Shown: one piece after another, positions 2,544 to 21,320 of the stretch
Layout of the letters: each line of letters begins with the position of its first letter
How positions within the stretch are numbered: position 1 is the first letter of the stretch
Origin: a virus
Length of the DNA: 21,320 nt
Virus record (IMG/VR): IMGVR_UViG_3300037264_001178
Span: 1-21,320 of that record
Strand: one strand, 5' to 3'
The notes under the pieces: generated by a model
The model's database searches: none
Told to the model about the DNA's origin: nothing
What the model saw: only the letters and a program-made list of their open reading frames with translations
Position numbers and translations under genes: made by a program

Positions 2544-2716
2544 TGCGCTGGAGACTCTACCGCGTTGTCATGCGGCTTGCCCATCGGTTTCACTGGCATT
2601 ACGCGCCTCCGATCTACCCGGAGGGAGATACCGTGCTGTGGTGTCAATGGTGCGGCTTCCGACAAACTACGAAGAAGTTTGCAGATAAGCAGATAGCGAA
2701 GGTGCTCAGCGAGTGA
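2543..2716 (+). CDS. Small basic protein with a WCQWCGF knuckle
   Basis: This 57-aa protein starts at the ATG overlapping the previous stop (TGATG). An in-frame upstream ATG at 2516 exists but would extend into the previous gene, so 2543 is preferred. It is basic and aromatic, with HRFHWHY near residues 14-20 and a single CxxC in WCQWCGF. One CxxC plus nearby His residues could bind a metal, but a full zinc ribbon is not present. It resembles short phage proteins with an LWCQWCGFR segment, as far as I recall. Its stop overlaps the GTG start of the terminase nuclease half, so translation is probably coupled. Confidence 0.65.
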   Translation: MRWRLYRVVMRLAHRFHWHYAPPIYPEGDTVLWCQWCGFRQTTKKFADKQIAKVLSE

Positions 2717-3645
2717 CGGGTGTCTCAGGCCCGCTCCCCGGCCTCTCTCTGCGGCGAACCTCCCAAGGCATCGCCGTCCTCCGCGTCCATCACACCTGCG
2801 ACCCTGACAAATCCAGCGCTGAGTGGCGGGCCAAGGAACGGGCAAAGTTCACTTCCGAGGCGATCTTCCGCCAAGAGATCGACATTGAGTACGACGCCAA
2901 GCAAGGGGCGCTGGTCTACTCCGAGTTCGAGCCGCAGATCCACGTCATACCGAACGATCAGGTTCCCGCAAAGCTGACCCGGTACATGTCGATTGACCCG
3001 CATCCGAGGACACCGCACGCGATGCTCTGGGTCGGCATCGACCAGTGGTCGGACTGGTACGTTTACCGGGAATTGTGGGACAGCCAGGTGTACGGTCAGG
3101 CGCGTCAACTTCGGGACAACGACTCTGAGAACTCCTACACCGTGAAGGAGTATGTGGGAGCCATCGTCGCTCTCGAAGGCAACAGCATCGAGTGGCATAA
3201 CGAGGAAACCGACGACGAGTACGGGATCTTCAGGCGCGGTGCCAAGGGCGAGAACATCGTCTACCGCTTCATGGATCAGGCCGGGAAAGCGTTCCGGGCT
3301 TCGGGTGAGGGCCAGCAGGTCGAGACGTATGCCAAGCGGTACGACCGCTTCGGGATTCAGTGTGTGGACCCCAAGAAGTCCCATGAGTCAGGCGAGGACG
3401 CGATCCGCCAGTTGCTCAAGAGTCGGCGGCACGACACCAAAGGCGCATGGCCGCGGATTCACATTGCGGCGCGGTGCGAAGAGTTGATAATGGAGTTCCG
3501 GCGCCACCGCTGGAAGTCGATCAGGAAATGGACGGCGGACCGGGAGTTGTTCCAGGAAGGTTCGCTCGTCAGAACGCACATGCTGGACAATCTGAGATAC
3601 CTCGCCACAGGGGATCTTTGTTGGATAGGAAATTTGGCAAGTTAA
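2713..3645 (+). CDS. Terminase large subunit, nuclease half (split gene)
   Basis: This 310-aa protein is the C-terminal RNase H-like nuclease of a large terminase, which cuts concatemeric DNA before and after packaging. It starts at GTG overlapping the previous stop (GTGA). Residues 11-33 (LSLRRTSQG... through HHTCDPDK) match the strand that normally follows the ATPase domain. RQEIDIEYDAKQGALVYSEF lies at 53-72. Likely catalytic acidic residues are Asp95 in MSIDPHPRTPH, Asp188 in RFMDQAG and Asp292 in HMLDNLRYLA, matching the usual spacing of three metal-binding acidic positions. There is no ATPase motif, so it must work with the product of the gene at 545. Both halves look intact, which argues against simple decay. 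Domain identity is strong. The two-chain motor is inferred. Confidence 0.88.
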   Translation: MTGVSGPLPGLSLRRTSQGIAVLRVHHTCDPDKSSAEWRAKERAKFTSEAIFRQEIDIEYDAKQGALVYSEFEPQIHVIPNDQVPAKLTRYMSIDPHPRTPHAMLWVGIDQWSDWYVYRELWDSQVYGQARQLRDNDSENSYTVKEYVGAIVALEGNSIEWHNEETDDEYGIFRRGAKGENIVYRFMDQAGKAFRASGEGQQVETYAKRYDRFGIQCVDPKKSHESGEDAIRQLLKSRRHDTKGAWPRIHIAARCEELIMEFRRHRWKSIRKWTADRELFQEGSLVRTHMLDNLRYLATGDLCWIGNLAS

Positions 3646-9421: not shown

Positions 9422-10255
9422 ATGGCCGCAGGGCACGTTGTTGAGATCGCCGTCCTGACTTACCGCGGCTGGCCGGACCATTCGCGGCGGGCCATCAACC
9501 GCATGGCCTTCCATTCACACCGCGCCGGGACAAAGGTTGTCGGGCCGGTGGAGTATGGAAACGCGCTTGTTCATCGGGCGCGAAACGAAGTACTGGCGCA
9601 CGTTGGCGAGGACGTGACCCACCTTCTGTTTGTTGACGATGACATGGTGCCGTTTGAGGATGCACTGGAACGACTGCTGATCCACAGCGTTCCAGTAGTG
9701 GCGGCACTTTATGCGAGCAGGCACGACACCCCTGAGCTCGTCGTTAGAGCATACGACGAGCGGTCCTGCCAGTTCGCCCGGATGGAGGCCATGCGTCCAG
9801 GTCTCCATACCGGGAAGTTCGGTGTTGCAACCGGCTTCCTTCTGTTGCGCCGCGACGTGGTAGAGGCAGTAGTCAAAGATTACTTGACCGCTGCCGACTG
9901 GCTGGAGGAGAACCGGAGGATGCTGGACCGGCTTCACGTTCGCGTGGAGTACCGGGAAAAGGAACAGGCGCATAAGGCTGAGATCCGCCAAGCGCGATGG
10001 GAAAGAGACAAGTACCTGCGCGTGTTCGACTTCCCGGTTGGGGACGATGAGATCCAGAAGGGTGAGGATATCGCCCTATCGTCCCGTCTGATTCGGTTGA
10101 AAATCCCAATTGCCGTGGATGCTTCAATTCAGGTCGGGCACCTGGGAGAGCGAGTGTTCACGCCTGACGATGTGCAGTTCAGCCGTGATGATATGACGCT
10201 TGTGCAGGAGTTCGACAAGCTCTCAAAAATGGAGACTGTTCTTGAACACCACTGA
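9422..10255 (+). CDS. Glycosyltransferase, GT-A fold
   Basis: This 277-aa protein has the signature of a GT-A (GT2-like) nucleotide-sugar glycosyltransferase. The N-terminal strand EIAVLTYRGW is followed by NEVLAHVGEDVTHLLFVDDDMVP, where DDD (72-74) is the metal/nucleotide-binding DxD. VATGFLLLRRDV lies at 136-146, GEDIALSSRL (214-223) is a plausible acceptor-side acidic motif, and GHLGERVF (239-246) has a candidate metal-binding His. A charged helical insert of about 50 residues (150-200) interrupts the C-terminal part. It transfers an unknown sugar to an unknown acceptor. Its position between capsid and tail genes suggests virion protein or host-surface modification. The start at ATG 9422 is 2 nt after the previous stop. 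Confidence 0.8.
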   Translation: MAAGHVVEIAVLTYRGWPDHSRRAINRMAFHSHRAGTKVVGPVEYGNALVHRARNEVLAHVGEDVTHLLFVDDDMVPFEDALERLLIHSVPVVAALYASRHDTPELVVRAYDERSCQFARMEAMRPGLHTGKFGVATGFLLLRRDVVEAVVKDYLTAADWLEENRRMLDRLHVRVEYREKEQAHKAEIRQARWERDKYLRVFDFPVGDDEIQKGEDIALSSRLIRLKIPIAVDASIQVGHLGERVFTPDDVQFSRDDMTLVQEFDKLSKMETVLEHH

Positions 10256-17214: not shown

Positions 17215-20200
17215 ATGGCAACAGCGGCATTCCAATTCGACGTTCGTGGGGCACGGAAGTCCGGGTACTCCAATCAGGAGATCCTCGACGAAATCCGCAG
17301 CGACTTCGATGTTGATGGAGCAAGGGCCGCCGGGTATTCAGACGATGAGATTCTGAGCGAAGTCGGTGTTCCTCTGACCAAGGGTGAAGCTGCGAGTGAA
17401 ATGGATCGGGCGCTTACGGTCAGGCCCATGGGGCCTCAGTCAGCAATCGCCAAGCCAAAGATAGCGGCTCCGTTCTATACCAGAGAGAAGCCGATCCACG
17501 GCACGGAACAAACCGGTTTACCCGGTGTGCCACAGCCACAGATGAATGTCGAGTACGACATCCGCGGCGAAGAACCAGGCGCCGTCATGATTCCAGGCAA
17601 GGGAGTTGTACGGCCGCCAGTGGCAGAGTTCCCACGAGTGCCTGTCCTCGATACTCTCATGCGGGCTGGCAATCAAGCTACGATGGGGGTTGTCGGCGGG
17701 ATGGGGACTGCTGCTCAAGTTCTCGGCCAGCAGTACAAAGGTGGATTGCGGCCCGATGCCGAACCGCTAGGGGACCTTCTGACTGGCATCGGCGAAGGCG
17801 TGAAAGAGTTCGCTAAACGCGGCACTGCTCCTACACGACAGGAACTCAGTTACGTACAGGATTCCTGGTTAAAGGACCCGACATTGCTGCTGGACCCGCA
17901 CTATGTCGTCAATCAAGTAGGCCAGGCCAGCGGCTCCATGTTGGCTTTCCTGGGGCCGTCAATCGCTCTCTTCGGTGCTCCCACAACATTCGGTTCCGCG
18001 ATTCGCACTGTGCTCGGTTCCTCTGGGTTGGAGTCGCTAGTCAACGCGGCCGAGGTTCACGACGCGGCAAAGAAAACCTATGGGGCCACTGACGAGGAAG
18101 CCGCAAAAGCATTCACCACTGCCCTAACCAGGGATCTGCCAGTAACAGCCTTGACAAACCTTGCTGGCTTGTTGAATCCGCTCATCAAGTCGAAGGTCGT
18201 CCGAATGGGCGCCGGCGCGATCAGCGAGCCGATACAGGAAGTAGCACAGGGGGTAAGCGGACGTACAGTTCTCAAGGAAAAGTTCGATCCTAACCTCTCG
18301 CTGAGTAAGGGTGCCGACGTAGAAGCCCTCGGCGGCCTCATCGGCGGTGTCATGGGCGGTCACATGGTCGGCGAGACAGCGCGTGAACCGAGTGCGGCTG
18401 AACAGGAGATGGCGAACCTCAAGTGGAGCGTTCGCGAGGGCAGAGGTTCGCTACAGGATCTGGCAAAGCGCCGGATGGAATTGCTTCGGCAACAGGAACA
18501 GGTGGGAACAGGTCGGCCCCGGCAGGAACCGACAGGAACCGATACTATCCGACAGGAACCGATAGAGACGCCAGGGTCACAAGTAGGGACACAAGCACAG
18601 TTCGCTGAGACGATGGAGCCAGAAATCGAGACGCCAGGGCCACAAGTACGGCCGCCAACCCAGTTTGACGAGACAGGAGGGTACAATGCTCCGCAGGACA
18701 TCGAAGGGATGGGTGGTGGTCAGCCACAGCGGGAAGAGGCTATCGCGCCCGGCGACCAAGAAAGCGGCGGTCAACCGGCTGAGGCAGGTGGAGTACTTCA
18801 AGAACCGGAAGTAGGGTCACCGTGGCGCCGGCTGATGAACGCGGTCAAGGGCGCACTCGCCAAAGGGGAGTCCTTCAACAACCCTAAGTTCGACGCGCTG
18901 GCTGAACAGCAGCTCGGCGGGTCCAGAGCAGAAGGCACCTTCAAAATGAAGGAAGCCTACGACGCCCTCGAAGCTGCGGTCAATGAGGCGTTGGATACAC
19001 CGGAGGGCAAGACCGGAGTAACGCTTGGTGAAGCGATGCTGAGTCGCTCCGAGGACCCATCGCGGGATGCGGATTGGGCGCTCCGTGGCCTGCGTGAACT
19101 CGTCACCAGGCTTCCAACCCAGAATATCCGGTCAGCCGAACAGGAAGGACTTCAGCAGTTCTCTACCCCGCCCACCTTGGCGTGGCTGGCGAACATGGCT
19201 CTGAACCCACGGAAGGATGATGTTGTTCTGGAGCCATCGGCAGGTACTGGGTCACTGGTCACCATGTTGCGCCGCATGGTCAAGAAGGTGATGGTCAACG
19301 AGATCGACCCTCACCGGCAAGCACTCCTGAAGGAGCAGGGCTACGAGAACATCACCGATGCTGATGCGGAGTTTCTGAATGGGACTCTCGAAGCGAAGGG
19401 AGTGACTGAGCGACCAACTGCCATCGTGATGAATCCGCCATTCTCATCGACTGGTGGCAGGGTTGCCAAGAATGCCAACAAGTTCGGCTACTCCCATGTA
19501 ATGTCGGCACTTCAACGACTCGCTCCTGGAGGCCGCTTGGTCGCCATTCTCGGAGAAGGTGCCACTCCGACAGCGCCGACGGCCAGAGCATTTTGGGGCA
19601 ATGTGAAGGATGCGTATACGCTCCGCGCCAACATCGGAATCAGCGGACGGGAGTATACTAAGTACGGAACGACGTTCGGGAACCGGCTCATTGTGATCGA
19701 CAAGACCGGTCCGACGCAAGCACAACCGCTGACAGGTGACTTCGAGAACATCGAGGAGGCATGGAATGCAATCCAACGCATCGCCGACGATAGGCCATCC
19801 ATCGGTCAGCCGGGCGGCGACCTCATCGCAGATGGAGTGGATCAACAGCCTGGACTTCCAGAAACTCAACAGCCTGACCGACAGCCTGATGGAGGTCTAC
19901 GACCAGGTGGAGAACGAGGACCGGAAGGAGGAGATAGCGGACAGCCTGGGCCTGGAGAGCGCGGAGGGCGCGATAGGCTACGTGGCGAAGGCGCTGGAAC
20001 AAGAACCGAAGAAGGCCCTCAACAAGCTCCTGCGTCAGATGCCACAGTTCAACCTCCGCGACCTCAGCCAGAACCCACCGGAAAAGGTGATCGAGGCCCT
20101 GCTGATGATAGCGGCAAGCGAAGGCTAACACCGCCGACCGAACAAGAGATTGAACAGGCGCTGGACGCTGACATCAAGCAGCGGTCAGACGATGCAATGA

Positions 20201-21320
20201 CCCGCCTGCGGAATAAGCTCCGCAAGTCTGGCGCTTCATATGCTCCAAGCGTTCTTGGGTTCGAGCCGGGGGAACTCTCGGATGCCGAAATCAAGGACCT
20301 CTGGCCGGATCTTGTAGAAGCCTCAGCCGGACTCATGCGTGGCCGTAAAGCCAGCGAGTGGCGGGCGGCCATGATAGGTGAGTTCGGCGAAGGGATACGG
20401 AATCATCTCAATGAGTTGTTCGAGTCCACCCACGATCACTTGGAGGAACGGCGCCGGGCTGTTGTAGCCCAACTGGCAGAACCTCCACAACCAGAGCCAC
20501 AAGACCAAAAGCCTGAAGAAGGCGGCGTTGATATTGAGGCCAAAGAACAGACGGAATCAGAAGAGGATGAAGAAGGGTCCAACTTCGCCGTCTATCAACC
20601 AGCCGTTGCCGGGCCGCCGCATCCAGGACGTCTTGTAGAGACAAAAGTGATGGCGTCGGTGGAAGCGCCAACCGTGACATACGCTCCGAATCTGCCAGCG
20701 ACGATCATCAGCGAAGGCAGATTGTCTGCGGCTCAGCTTGAAACCGTGGCACGCGCTGGCATGATGCACGAGCAATTCGACGCAAACGGTCAACGGCTTG
20801 GGTATCTGATCGGTGACGGGACTGGTGTCGGTAAGGGGCGCGAGATTGCGTCCATCATCCTTGACAACCACAGAAATGGCCGGAAGCGGGCAGTCTGGGT
20901 ATCGGCTGGTAAAGACTTGATTTCTGATGCTCGACGGGATTTCGTCGGAATTGGAGCAATGAGGGTAGAGGCCGGTGAGGTCAAAGCGTCAGATATTGGA
21001 GAGTTACAGCGTGTGAACAAGTGGCCCGCAGGAGCCAAGATCCCCATAAAGGATGGTGTCATCTTCACCACCTTCGATACGCTCAAGATGGCGGAAACCA
21101 AGGAGGGTGGCAGAACCAGAGTGGAGCAAATCGCCGAGTGGCTCGGCCAAGATGGCGTCATCGTATTTGACGAGATTCATAAGGCGAAGAACTTCTTGGC
21201 GGCAGAGAAGGGTGCCGAGGGGACACAAATGGGTGCAGCCGTTGTAGCTATCCAGGAGAAACTTCCCAAGGCCCGCATAGTCTATGCTTCCGCTACATTT
21301 GCCAGTGAGGTCCGCCATCT
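17215..21320 (+). CDS. Polyvalent DarB-like protein: methyltransferase + helicase (3' end outside window)
   Basis: This frame is open for 1368 codons and leaves the window without a stop. ATG 17215 is 2 nt after the previous stop, implying coupling. Domains in order: two repeats FDVRGARKSGYSNQEILDEI (8-27) and FDVDGARAAGYSDDEILSEV (31-50), typical of phage-delivered megaproteins; a Gly/Ala/hydrophobic region (about 230-390); low-complexity linker 1 (about 430-535); a DNA methyltransferase core with EPSAGTG (673-679) and NPPF (740-743), consistent with N6-adenine or N4-cytosine methylation; linker 2 (about 850-975); then the start of a strawberry-notch-type SF2 helicase with GDGTGVGKGR (1200-1209), DEIH (1319-1322) and SAT (1359-1361). 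P1 DarB and related polyvalent proteins combine such domains and protect incoming DNA from restriction. Antirestriction here is inferred from architecture. Both linkers carry small genes in the +1 frame. Confidence 0.85.
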   Translation, partial: MATAAFQFDVRGARKSGYSNQEILDEIRSDFDVDGARAAGYSDDEILSEVGVPLTKGEAASEMDRALTVRPMGPQSAIAKPKIAAPFYTREKPIHGTEQTGLPGVPQPQMNVEYDIRGEEPGAVMIPGKGVVRPPVAEFPRVPVLDTLMRAGNQATMGVVGGMGTAAQVLGQQYKGGLRPDAEPLGDLLTGIGEGVKEFAKRGTAPTRQELSYVQDSWLKDPTLLLDPHYVVNQVGQASGSMLAFLGPSIALFGAPTTFGSAIRTVLGSSGLESLVNAAEVHDAAKKTYGATDEEAAKAFTTALTRDLPVTALTNLAGLLNPLIKSKVVRMGAGAISEPIQEVAQGVSGRTVLKEKFDPNLSLSKGADVEALGGLIGGVMGGHMVGETAREPSAAEQEMANLKWSVREGRGSLQDLAKRRMELLRQQEQVGTGRPRQEPTGTDTIRQEPIETPGSQVGTQAQFAETMEPEIETPGPQVRPPTQFDETGGYNAPQDIEGMGGGQPQREEAIAPGDQESGGQPAEAGGVLQEPEVGSPWRRLMNAVKGALAKGESFNNPKFDALAEQQLGGSRAEGTFKMKEAYDALEAAVNEALDTPEGKTGVTLGEAMLSRSEDPSRDADWALRGLRELVTRLPTQNIRSAEQEGLQQFSTPPTLAWLANMALNPRKDDVVLEPSAGTGSLVTMLRRMVKKVMVNEIDPHRQALLKEQGYENITDADAEFLNGTLEAKGVTERPTAIVMNPPFSSTGGRVAKNANKFGYSHVMSALQRLAPGGRLVAILGEGATPTAPTARAFWGNVKDAYTLRANIGISGREYTKYGTTFGNRLIVIDKTGPTQAQPLTGDFENIEEAWNAIQRIADDRPSIGQPGGDLIADGVDQQPGLPETQQPDRQPDGGLRPGGERGPEGGDSGQPGPGERGGRDRLRGEGAGTRTEEGPQQAPASDATVQPPRPQPEPTGKGDRGPADDSGKRRLTPPTEQEIEQALDADIKQRSDDAMTRLRNKLRKSGASYAPSVLGFEPGELSDAEIKDLWPDLVEASAGLMRGRKASEWRAAMIGEFGEGIRNHLNELFESTHDHLEERRRAVVAQLAEPPQPEPQDQKPEEGGVDIEAKEQTESEEDEEGSNFAVYQPAVAGPPHPGRLVETKVMASVEAPTVTYAPNLPATIISEGRLSAAQLETVARAGMMHEQFDANGQRLGYLIGDGTGVGKGREIASIILDNHRNGRKRAVWVSAGKDLISDARRDFVGIGAMRVEAGEVKASDIGELQRVNKWPAGAKIPIKDGVIFTTFDTLKMAETKEGGRTRVEQIAEWLGQDGVIVFDEIHKAKNFLAAEKGAEGTQMGAAVVAIQEKLPKARIVYASATFASEVRH
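18562..18675 (+). repeat. Two imperfect 51-nt repeats, period 63, in linker 1
   Basis: The segments 18562-18612 and 18625-18675 both encode an IETPG-S/P-QV...QF..ET unit. GACAGGAACCGATA also recurs just upstream (about 18529 and 18550). The repeats lie immediately before the SD of the embedded 42-aa gene and show that this linker grows by duplication. Confidence 0.7.
18686..18814 (+). CDS. Embedded small gene in +1 frame of linker 1, 42 aa
   Basis: ATG 18686 has AGGAGG at 18675-18680, an ideal 5-nt spacing. The product begins MLRRTSKGWVVVSHSGKRL and ends RLRQVEYFKNRK. It is basic and looks like a three-strand plus helix miniprotein. The GWxVxS-x-GK-x(n)-A-x(2)-RLRQVEYFK pattern matches short free-standing phage proteins of unknown function, as I recall. 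By hand count 38 of 42 sense codons end in G or C, while the giant frame over the same bases has 20 of 42 and encodes Gly/Gln/Pro/Glu-rich linker. The giant frame has no stop here. Both reading frames therefore appear to be used. Translation would start internally on the giant mRNA. Function is unknown. Confidence 0.75.
   Translation: MLRRTSKGWVVVSHSGKRLSRPATKKAAVNRLRQVEYFKNRK
19766..20128 (+). CDS. Embedded gene in +1 frame of linker 2, up to 120 aa
   Basis: ATG 19766 has GAGGAGG at 19753-19759, 6 nt upstream, giving 120 aa. ATG 19832 (98 aa) is the alternative, without an SD. From 19832 the protein reads like a genuine folded acidic helical protein: MEWINSLDFQKLNSL, then LMEVYDQVENEDRKEEIADSLG, AIGYVAKALEQEPKKALNKLL, MPQFNLRDL and EKVIEALLMIAASEG. 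By hand count 85 of 98 sense codons end in G or C. The giant frame over the same bases has only 29 of 98, and its product is a Pro/Gly/Gln/Arg-rich linker between methyltransferase and helicase. The estimated net charge is about -9. No family is recognised. A partner of the giant protein or an independent inhibitor is possible. Confidence 0.75.
   Translation: MQSNASPTIGHPSVSRAATSSQMEWINSLDFQKLNSLTDSLMEVYDQVENEDRKEEIADSLGLESAEGAIGYVAKALEQEPKKALNKLLRQMPQFNLRDLSQNPPEKVIEALLMIAASEG

Follow-up and report, generated by a model that had tools for sequence, protein, structure and literature searches.

The window analysed here is the whole of the viral IMG/VR record IMGVR_UViG_3300037264_001178 (21,320 bp), which encodes a terminase, a capsid protein and other structural proteins. 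At its right end lies a giant ORF, and a second ORF is nested in the +1 frame of this gene. The features of the locus are as follows.

17215..21318, + strand: giant ORF, comprising an N-terminal region, a DNA methyltransferase (MTase), a linker and a strawberry-notch-type (AAA_34) helicase; open at the contig end
19096..19797, + strand: methyltransferase domain of the giant (about aa 628-861, motif NPPF)
19753..19759, + strand: Shine-Dalgarno (SD) sequence GAGGAGG of the nested gene, 6 nt from the ATG at 19766; overlies giant codons for E-E-A
19766..20128, + strand: nested gene, +1 frame relative to the giant, ATG at 19766, stop TAA at 20126-20128; 120 aa, pI 4.6, predicted to be all-helical
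19832..19834, + strand: alternative internal ATG (98-aa product), without a good SD, near the onset of the codon-usage anomaly
19832..20128, + strand: giant-frame linker (about aa 873-971), low-complexity G/P/E/R/Q; z for G/C at third codon positions (GC3) -5.6
20617..21315, + strand: AAA_34 (strawberry-notch-type) helicase domain of the giant (E 1.5e-75), from aa 1135, truncated by the contig end

DarB-like polyvalent proteins are giant phage and plasmid proteins in which an adenine MTase is fused to a strawberry-notch helicase of the SWI2/SNF2 clade (Iyer et al. 2017, PMC5512222). Judged by sequence matches, the giant combines the same two elements, an adenine-type MTase and a SWI2/SNF2-clade helicase of the strawberry-notch type, and is thus the same type of host gene as those described in PMC5512222; its MTase is akin to those of phage DarB-like and plasmid strawberry-notch proteins. 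P1 DarB is reported to be incorporated into the virion and to shield DNA in cis from type I restriction, and a Methylomonas example of an MTase-helicase protein is named in the same study (PMC5512222). The segment of the giant at 20134..20472 (+ strand), between linker and helicase, is probably helical and is missing from the plasmid relatives compared with it by alignment. The giant was unmatched in the capsid and portal relatives of the window phage, many of which are fragmentary records. Elsewhere in the window, the gene for the terminase large subunit is split into two ORFs (545-1327 and 2713-3645) by a cassette of ~1.4 kb (1272-2728), in which no intron was found by Rfam; the cassette is also present in L002 (about 89% identical), and L003 matches both flanks almost contiguously, without it. 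A glycosyltransferase-like gene (9422-10255; phrog_1574, phrog_2456) lies amid the structural genes.

An earlier note on this DNA, made from the letters alone, had described a +1 ORF with a strong SD over the linker, and the ORF proved to be exactly as described. The note had also read the codon usage of the overlap as a signal of the +1 frame. The depression of GC3 in the giant frame stands: over 19831-20130 it is 0.29, compared to 0.66 +/- 0.05 expected from the amino acids encoded and about 0.55-0.7 in the flanks of the nested ORF, and 19822-19920 is the most extreme 33-codon stretch of the whole contig in GC3, amino acids given (z -5.6). Over 19855-19974 the GC content of giant codon positions 1/2/3 is 0.95/0.65/0.28, which corresponds to a GC3 of 0.95 in the +1 frame. 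The extent of the signal has to be amended, as the anomaly begins near 19832 and not at 19766, because the first 22 codons of the nested ORF (19766-19831) lie over sequence that also encodes the conserved end of the MTase. A second low-GC3 stretch of the giant, at 20449-20580, was considered as a further nested gene and rejected; it encodes a Q/P/E linker and holds no comparable ORF.

Both frames are open over the overlap, as the note had it, but in the window the openness of the +1 frame is unsurprising by itself (P 0.67 over 98 codons, 0.18 over 120), because the linker is poor in Leu and Val. The hydrophobic character ascribed to the +1 product is borne out by its residue count: it has 32 V/I/L/M/F/W/Y per 98 aa, where synonymous resampling of the giant frame predicts 14.8 +/- 3.4 (P 5e-5). 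The +1 protein of the window, used alone as a query, found no match in viral contigs, phages, plasmids, Pfam, PHROGs, NCBIfam or PDB, and on its own would pass for an orphan.

With the giant as the query, plasmid-borne MTase-strawberry-notch proteins were matched, the best from Thioflavicoccus and Methylococcales. Three of these plasmid relatives (L017-L019) have an unannotated ORF of 114-117 aa in the same linker and the same +1 frame, and the encoded proteins are 66% (L018 and L019) and 43% (L018 and L017) identical; the nested gene is unannotated in the plasmid records examined. The SD-ATG of these homologues lies in the part of the MTase end equivalent to that in the window, which, with their length, favours 19766 over 19832 as the start. 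Scans based on the giant alignment yielded 80 viral and 80 genomic loci; with five loci lacking the nested ORF and one duplicate excluded, the set comprised 71 relatives with the ORF (72 loci including the window). The nested +1 ORFs of the relatives are about 90-155 aa long, and their SD-ATG usually falls within the last codons of the MTase. An SD equivalent to that of the window is present in nearly all homologues, although the frequency of 94% is inflated, the starts having been picked partly by SD. The carriers include viral contigs, plasmids, chromosomal loci and metagenome-assembled genomes labelled Firmicutes, Clostridia, Planctomycetota, Nitrospira, SAR324, Deltaproteobacteria and others. 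The nested proteins have a median pI of 4.7 and a median charge of -7, with several members at pI 6-8.

By the note's own account, its reading would be contradicted by homologues that keep the giant frame but have stop codons in the +1 frame, and such homologues were looked for. No stop was found in the nested ORF at any of the 72 loci, whereas 23 open ORFs and 106 stops are expected when each giant is resampled synonymously, a count in which related sequences are not independent. In low-GC genomes the probability that the +1 frame would be open is only 0.0015-0.02. We also applied one fixed rule to all groups (ATG, SD of at least 4 nt, position near the MTase end, ORF of at least 85 aa): it is satisfied by 67 of 80 loci in the two clade-rich groups, by two of 35 other MTase loci and by three of 50 alphaproteobacterial-type loci. 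The alphaproteobacterial strawberry-notch giants (L132-L181) have shorter linkers, and the subset tested keeps the giant codon pattern save for one 60-nt stretch, which indicates that the nested gene is not general in this group.

The pattern of substitution shows which of the two frames is constrained. In seven gapless copies of the Methylococcales type, differences at giant codon positions 1/2/3 occur at rates of.147/.087/.507 over the MTase and.417/.244/.134 over the nested ORF; the fast-changing position thus moves, at the ATG, from position 3 of the giant codon to position 3 of the +1 codon. We compared selection in the two frames, as the note had proposed, by reshuffling the observed substitutions and counting the resulting amino acid changes per frame. 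In Methylococcales pairs with enough differences, +1 amino acid changes are 0.45-0.67 of the number expected (P < 0.0005), and the ratio is 0.57-0.81 in viral, Firmicute, Planctomycete and Thioflavicoccus/Halochromatium pairs (0 of 1,000 shuffles). Giant-frame changes over the overlap are not depleted (observed/expected 0.95-1.23). For gapped pairs the alignment followed the +1 protein, a choice that favours the +1 frame; the gapless pairs are free of this bias. Within the sub-family of the window, the ratio in the +1 frame is 0.77 for L030 and L031 (0 of 1,000 shuffles) and 0.90 (P 0.005) for the window and L030, a pair too diverged for a strong test. Since amino acid changes in the giant frame are near the number expected, the linker is near neutral over the overlap and is largely an unselected, out-of-frame shadow of the nested gene. 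The note had considered an insertion in register or a de novo origin in a tolerant linker; the constraint pattern suggests instead that constraint acts on the +1 gene, with the linker frame as its by-product. The earlier reading of the +1 frame as the locally selected one therefore holds, with the frame open and conserved in 71 relatives and substitutions that track the +1 codon, and the nested gene is almost certainly real and under selection.

Sequence similarity does not tie all of these ORFs together. The nearest nested relatives of the window protein are L030 and L031 (phmmer 2.2e-5 and 6.4e-5) and L108. Another relative of L030, L220, is likewise nested. An HMM of L030, L031 and L108 gives the window protein 25.9 bits, compared to maxima of 7.0 bits in 3,000 synonymous resamplings of the window giant and 9.9 bits in 3,000 shuffles. 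Identity to the nearest relatives is 26-27%, which makes the codon-level test weak for the window itself. In profile comparison, the sub-family of the window, the main family and the Planctomycete sub-family are not significantly related, and the match of the window sub-family to the main family (E 0.013 one-to-one, probability 3%) is only suggestive. Compact MTase-helicase genes of Planctomycetes and Nitrospira (L120, L121, L124-L126, L129 and L131) also have a nested +1 ORF, which in most begins with MGEFA and has no detectable similarity to the main family; these ORFs are either a distinct family that occupies this site or the outcome of extreme divergence. It is position and frame, and not sequence, that speak for a shared ancestry of all sub-families.

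The earlier note had raised the question of free-standing copies, and one intact stand-alone homologue was found. Among 301 genomes of the order Methylococcales, 19 have the nested gene, and in 18 of these it lies inside the MTase-helicase gene; in the remnant L198 (genome G109, contig 2) the nested ORF is intact and both MTase and helicase have been deleted from either side. A set of 398 genomes, from the phylum of a Defluviitaleaceae carrier, gave seven matches, of which four are nested; the others are a decayed copy with two TAGs, a partial copy and a stand-alone ORF. The last (L215, 9463-9897; G971 contig 154) encodes 144 aa and is 39-40% identical to nested copies, and its former giant frame has ten stops. 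That it is intact despite these stops shows that the nested ORF can persist without the giant. The stand-alone ORF adjoins a duplicated fragment of an ADP-ribosylglycohydrolase-like gene, a neighbour named by eye.

No significant match to the nested proteins was found among Pfam, PHROG, NCBIfam and PDB profiles, and by these sequence comparisons the nested family matches no known family; it is missed by annotation. The protein is predicted to be mainly helical, with a confident globular fold predicted for the homologue from Methylobacter luteus: AF2 with family alignments gave a pLDDT of 90.6 and a pTM of 0.85 for this copy, and 79 and 0.60 for that of the window. Comparison with PDB by VIA-align gave best Z scores of 2.4 for the homologue model (5o9z, 58 aligned, 4.3 A) and 3.9 for the window model (2o7g, 71 aligned, 4.4 A), neither of which is meaningful. 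The profile and PDB comparisons thus returned no homology or fold match that would assign a function.

Our preferred reading is that ribosomes would start independently at the SD-ATG embedded in the final codons of the MTase, and that a helical, usually acidic protein of ~115 aa would thus be made from the giant's own mRNA. MTase-helicase proteins of this class are presumed to accompany the DNA into the new cell (PMC5512222), and the product may be a chaperone that keeps the MTase-helicase inactive or delivery-competent until it enters a new cell with phage or plasmid DNA; alternatively, the partner could be a small subunit of the active enzyme. The note's proposal that the product could act together with the DNA-protection machine encoded around it is plausible. 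We infer that a dedicated partner of the giant, whether chaperone or small subunit, is the most likely job of the product, with a probability that we put at about even. Consistent with such a role, the family is acidic and the gene is nested in nearly every genome that has it, although the tight linkage to the giant is also expected from physical nesting alone. Most carriers are long polyvalent giants, with a median of 881 aa before the MTase match compared to 134 aa in alphaproteobacterial-type loci, a difference that is phylogenetically confounded. The compact giants of Planctomycetes and Nitrospira also carry nested ORFs, so that the link to polyvalent forms is not strict, which counts against the partner role.

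The product might instead work independently of the giant, as a small acidic early effector (in anti-restriction, as a DNA mimic or in host takeover) that merely shares its mRNA and time of expression. The acidity of the family would suit such an effector, as would the intact stand-alone homologue, which has no MTase-helicase nearby, and the Methylococcales remnant in which the +1 ORF outlasted its surroundings. Against this, the gene is nearly always nested in an MTase-strawberry-notch gene, the members at pI 6-8 are unlike DNA mimics, and the remnants may be recent decay, one of them (G922) having two TAGs in the +1 frame. We regard an independent effector as the main rival, though well short of an even chance. 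A regulator of the element (a transcription or replication factor, or an antitoxin-like inhibitor), for which the giant would be only an address, is improbable: many small regulators are of this size and mainly helical, but the nested proteins have no significant match to HTH or other regulator profiles, no fold match and, being mostly acidic, little resemblance to DNA-binding proteins. The start of the ORF within the MTase end region, in the +1 frame, could also be seen as the mark of programmed +1 frameshifting, which would yield a shorter MTase with a helical tail and no separate protein. However, the distance from the ATG back to a +1 stop is no more than one codon in 15 of 71 loci and no more than ten codons in 40 of 71, so that hardly any space is left for entry from upstream, and it is the SD-ATG that is conserved; internal initiation is therefore favoured, and frameshifting is very unlikely. 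An ORF open by chance in a stop-poor linker low in Leu and Val, tenable on the window alone (P(open) 0.18-0.67), is scarcely credible given that frame, SD, sequence and purifying selection are conserved across phyla, low-GC genomes included, and that the homologue has a confident predicted fold; an assembly error was rejected in view of independent assemblies.

Several known systems offer likenesses to the nested gene. Cas11 small subunits, e.g., Cas11b, are produced by internal initiation within the gene for the large subunit (PMC11899642). The likeness lies in a small helical protein from an internal start in the gene for the larger subunit of a nucleic-acid-targeting complex; the difference is that Cas11 is in frame with its parent and the nested gene is in the +1 frame. 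Similarity to Cas11 was considered and not accepted on sequence, as the match to a CT1133-family CRISPR protein (E 0.24) is not significant; structural comparison of the window model with Csm2 gave Z scores of 2.4 and 2.2. Out-of-frame nested genes with an independent SD-ATG include comS within srfAB and Rz1 within Rz. The gene described here likewise has its own SD-ATG inside a larger gene in another frame, but it spans several phyla and types of element, and its outer frame is unconstrained over the overlap. VirE1 and the type III chaperones are small, acidic, helical proteins encoded with a large protein that is delivered into another cell. The nested product is also small, acidic and predicted to be helical, and is encoded with a large protein that is presumed to be delivered, features that are not specific; no similarity in sequence or fold to these chaperones was found. 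The paper in which the MTase-helicase dyad is defined (PMC5512222) makes no use of the word "overlapping"; subscription journals and preprints lay outside our search.

Genes nested in another frame are usually portrayed as young, restricted to one lineage and poorly supported. The gene described here, by contrast, occurs in several phyla and on three kinds of replicon. It has an independent codon-level signature, its fold is predicted with confidence, and it provides a clean case in which the large annotated frame is the unconstrained one. It is also tractable, as a substitution silent in the giant would suffice to abolish the nested start. Tentatively, the nested family may be a cis-encoded partner (delivery chaperone or small subunit) of the MTase-strawberry-notch polyvalent proteins of phages and conjugative plasmids, in which the constrained frame is probably also the older one, the giants having formed from a three-gene operon (MTase, small gene, helicase) that became a single gene through translation across the small gene in the other frame. 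If this is the case, part of a large enzyme would be the unselected shadow of the gene nested within it. With the nested gene, a widespread class of presumed anti-restriction proteins gains a component that had gone unrecognised.
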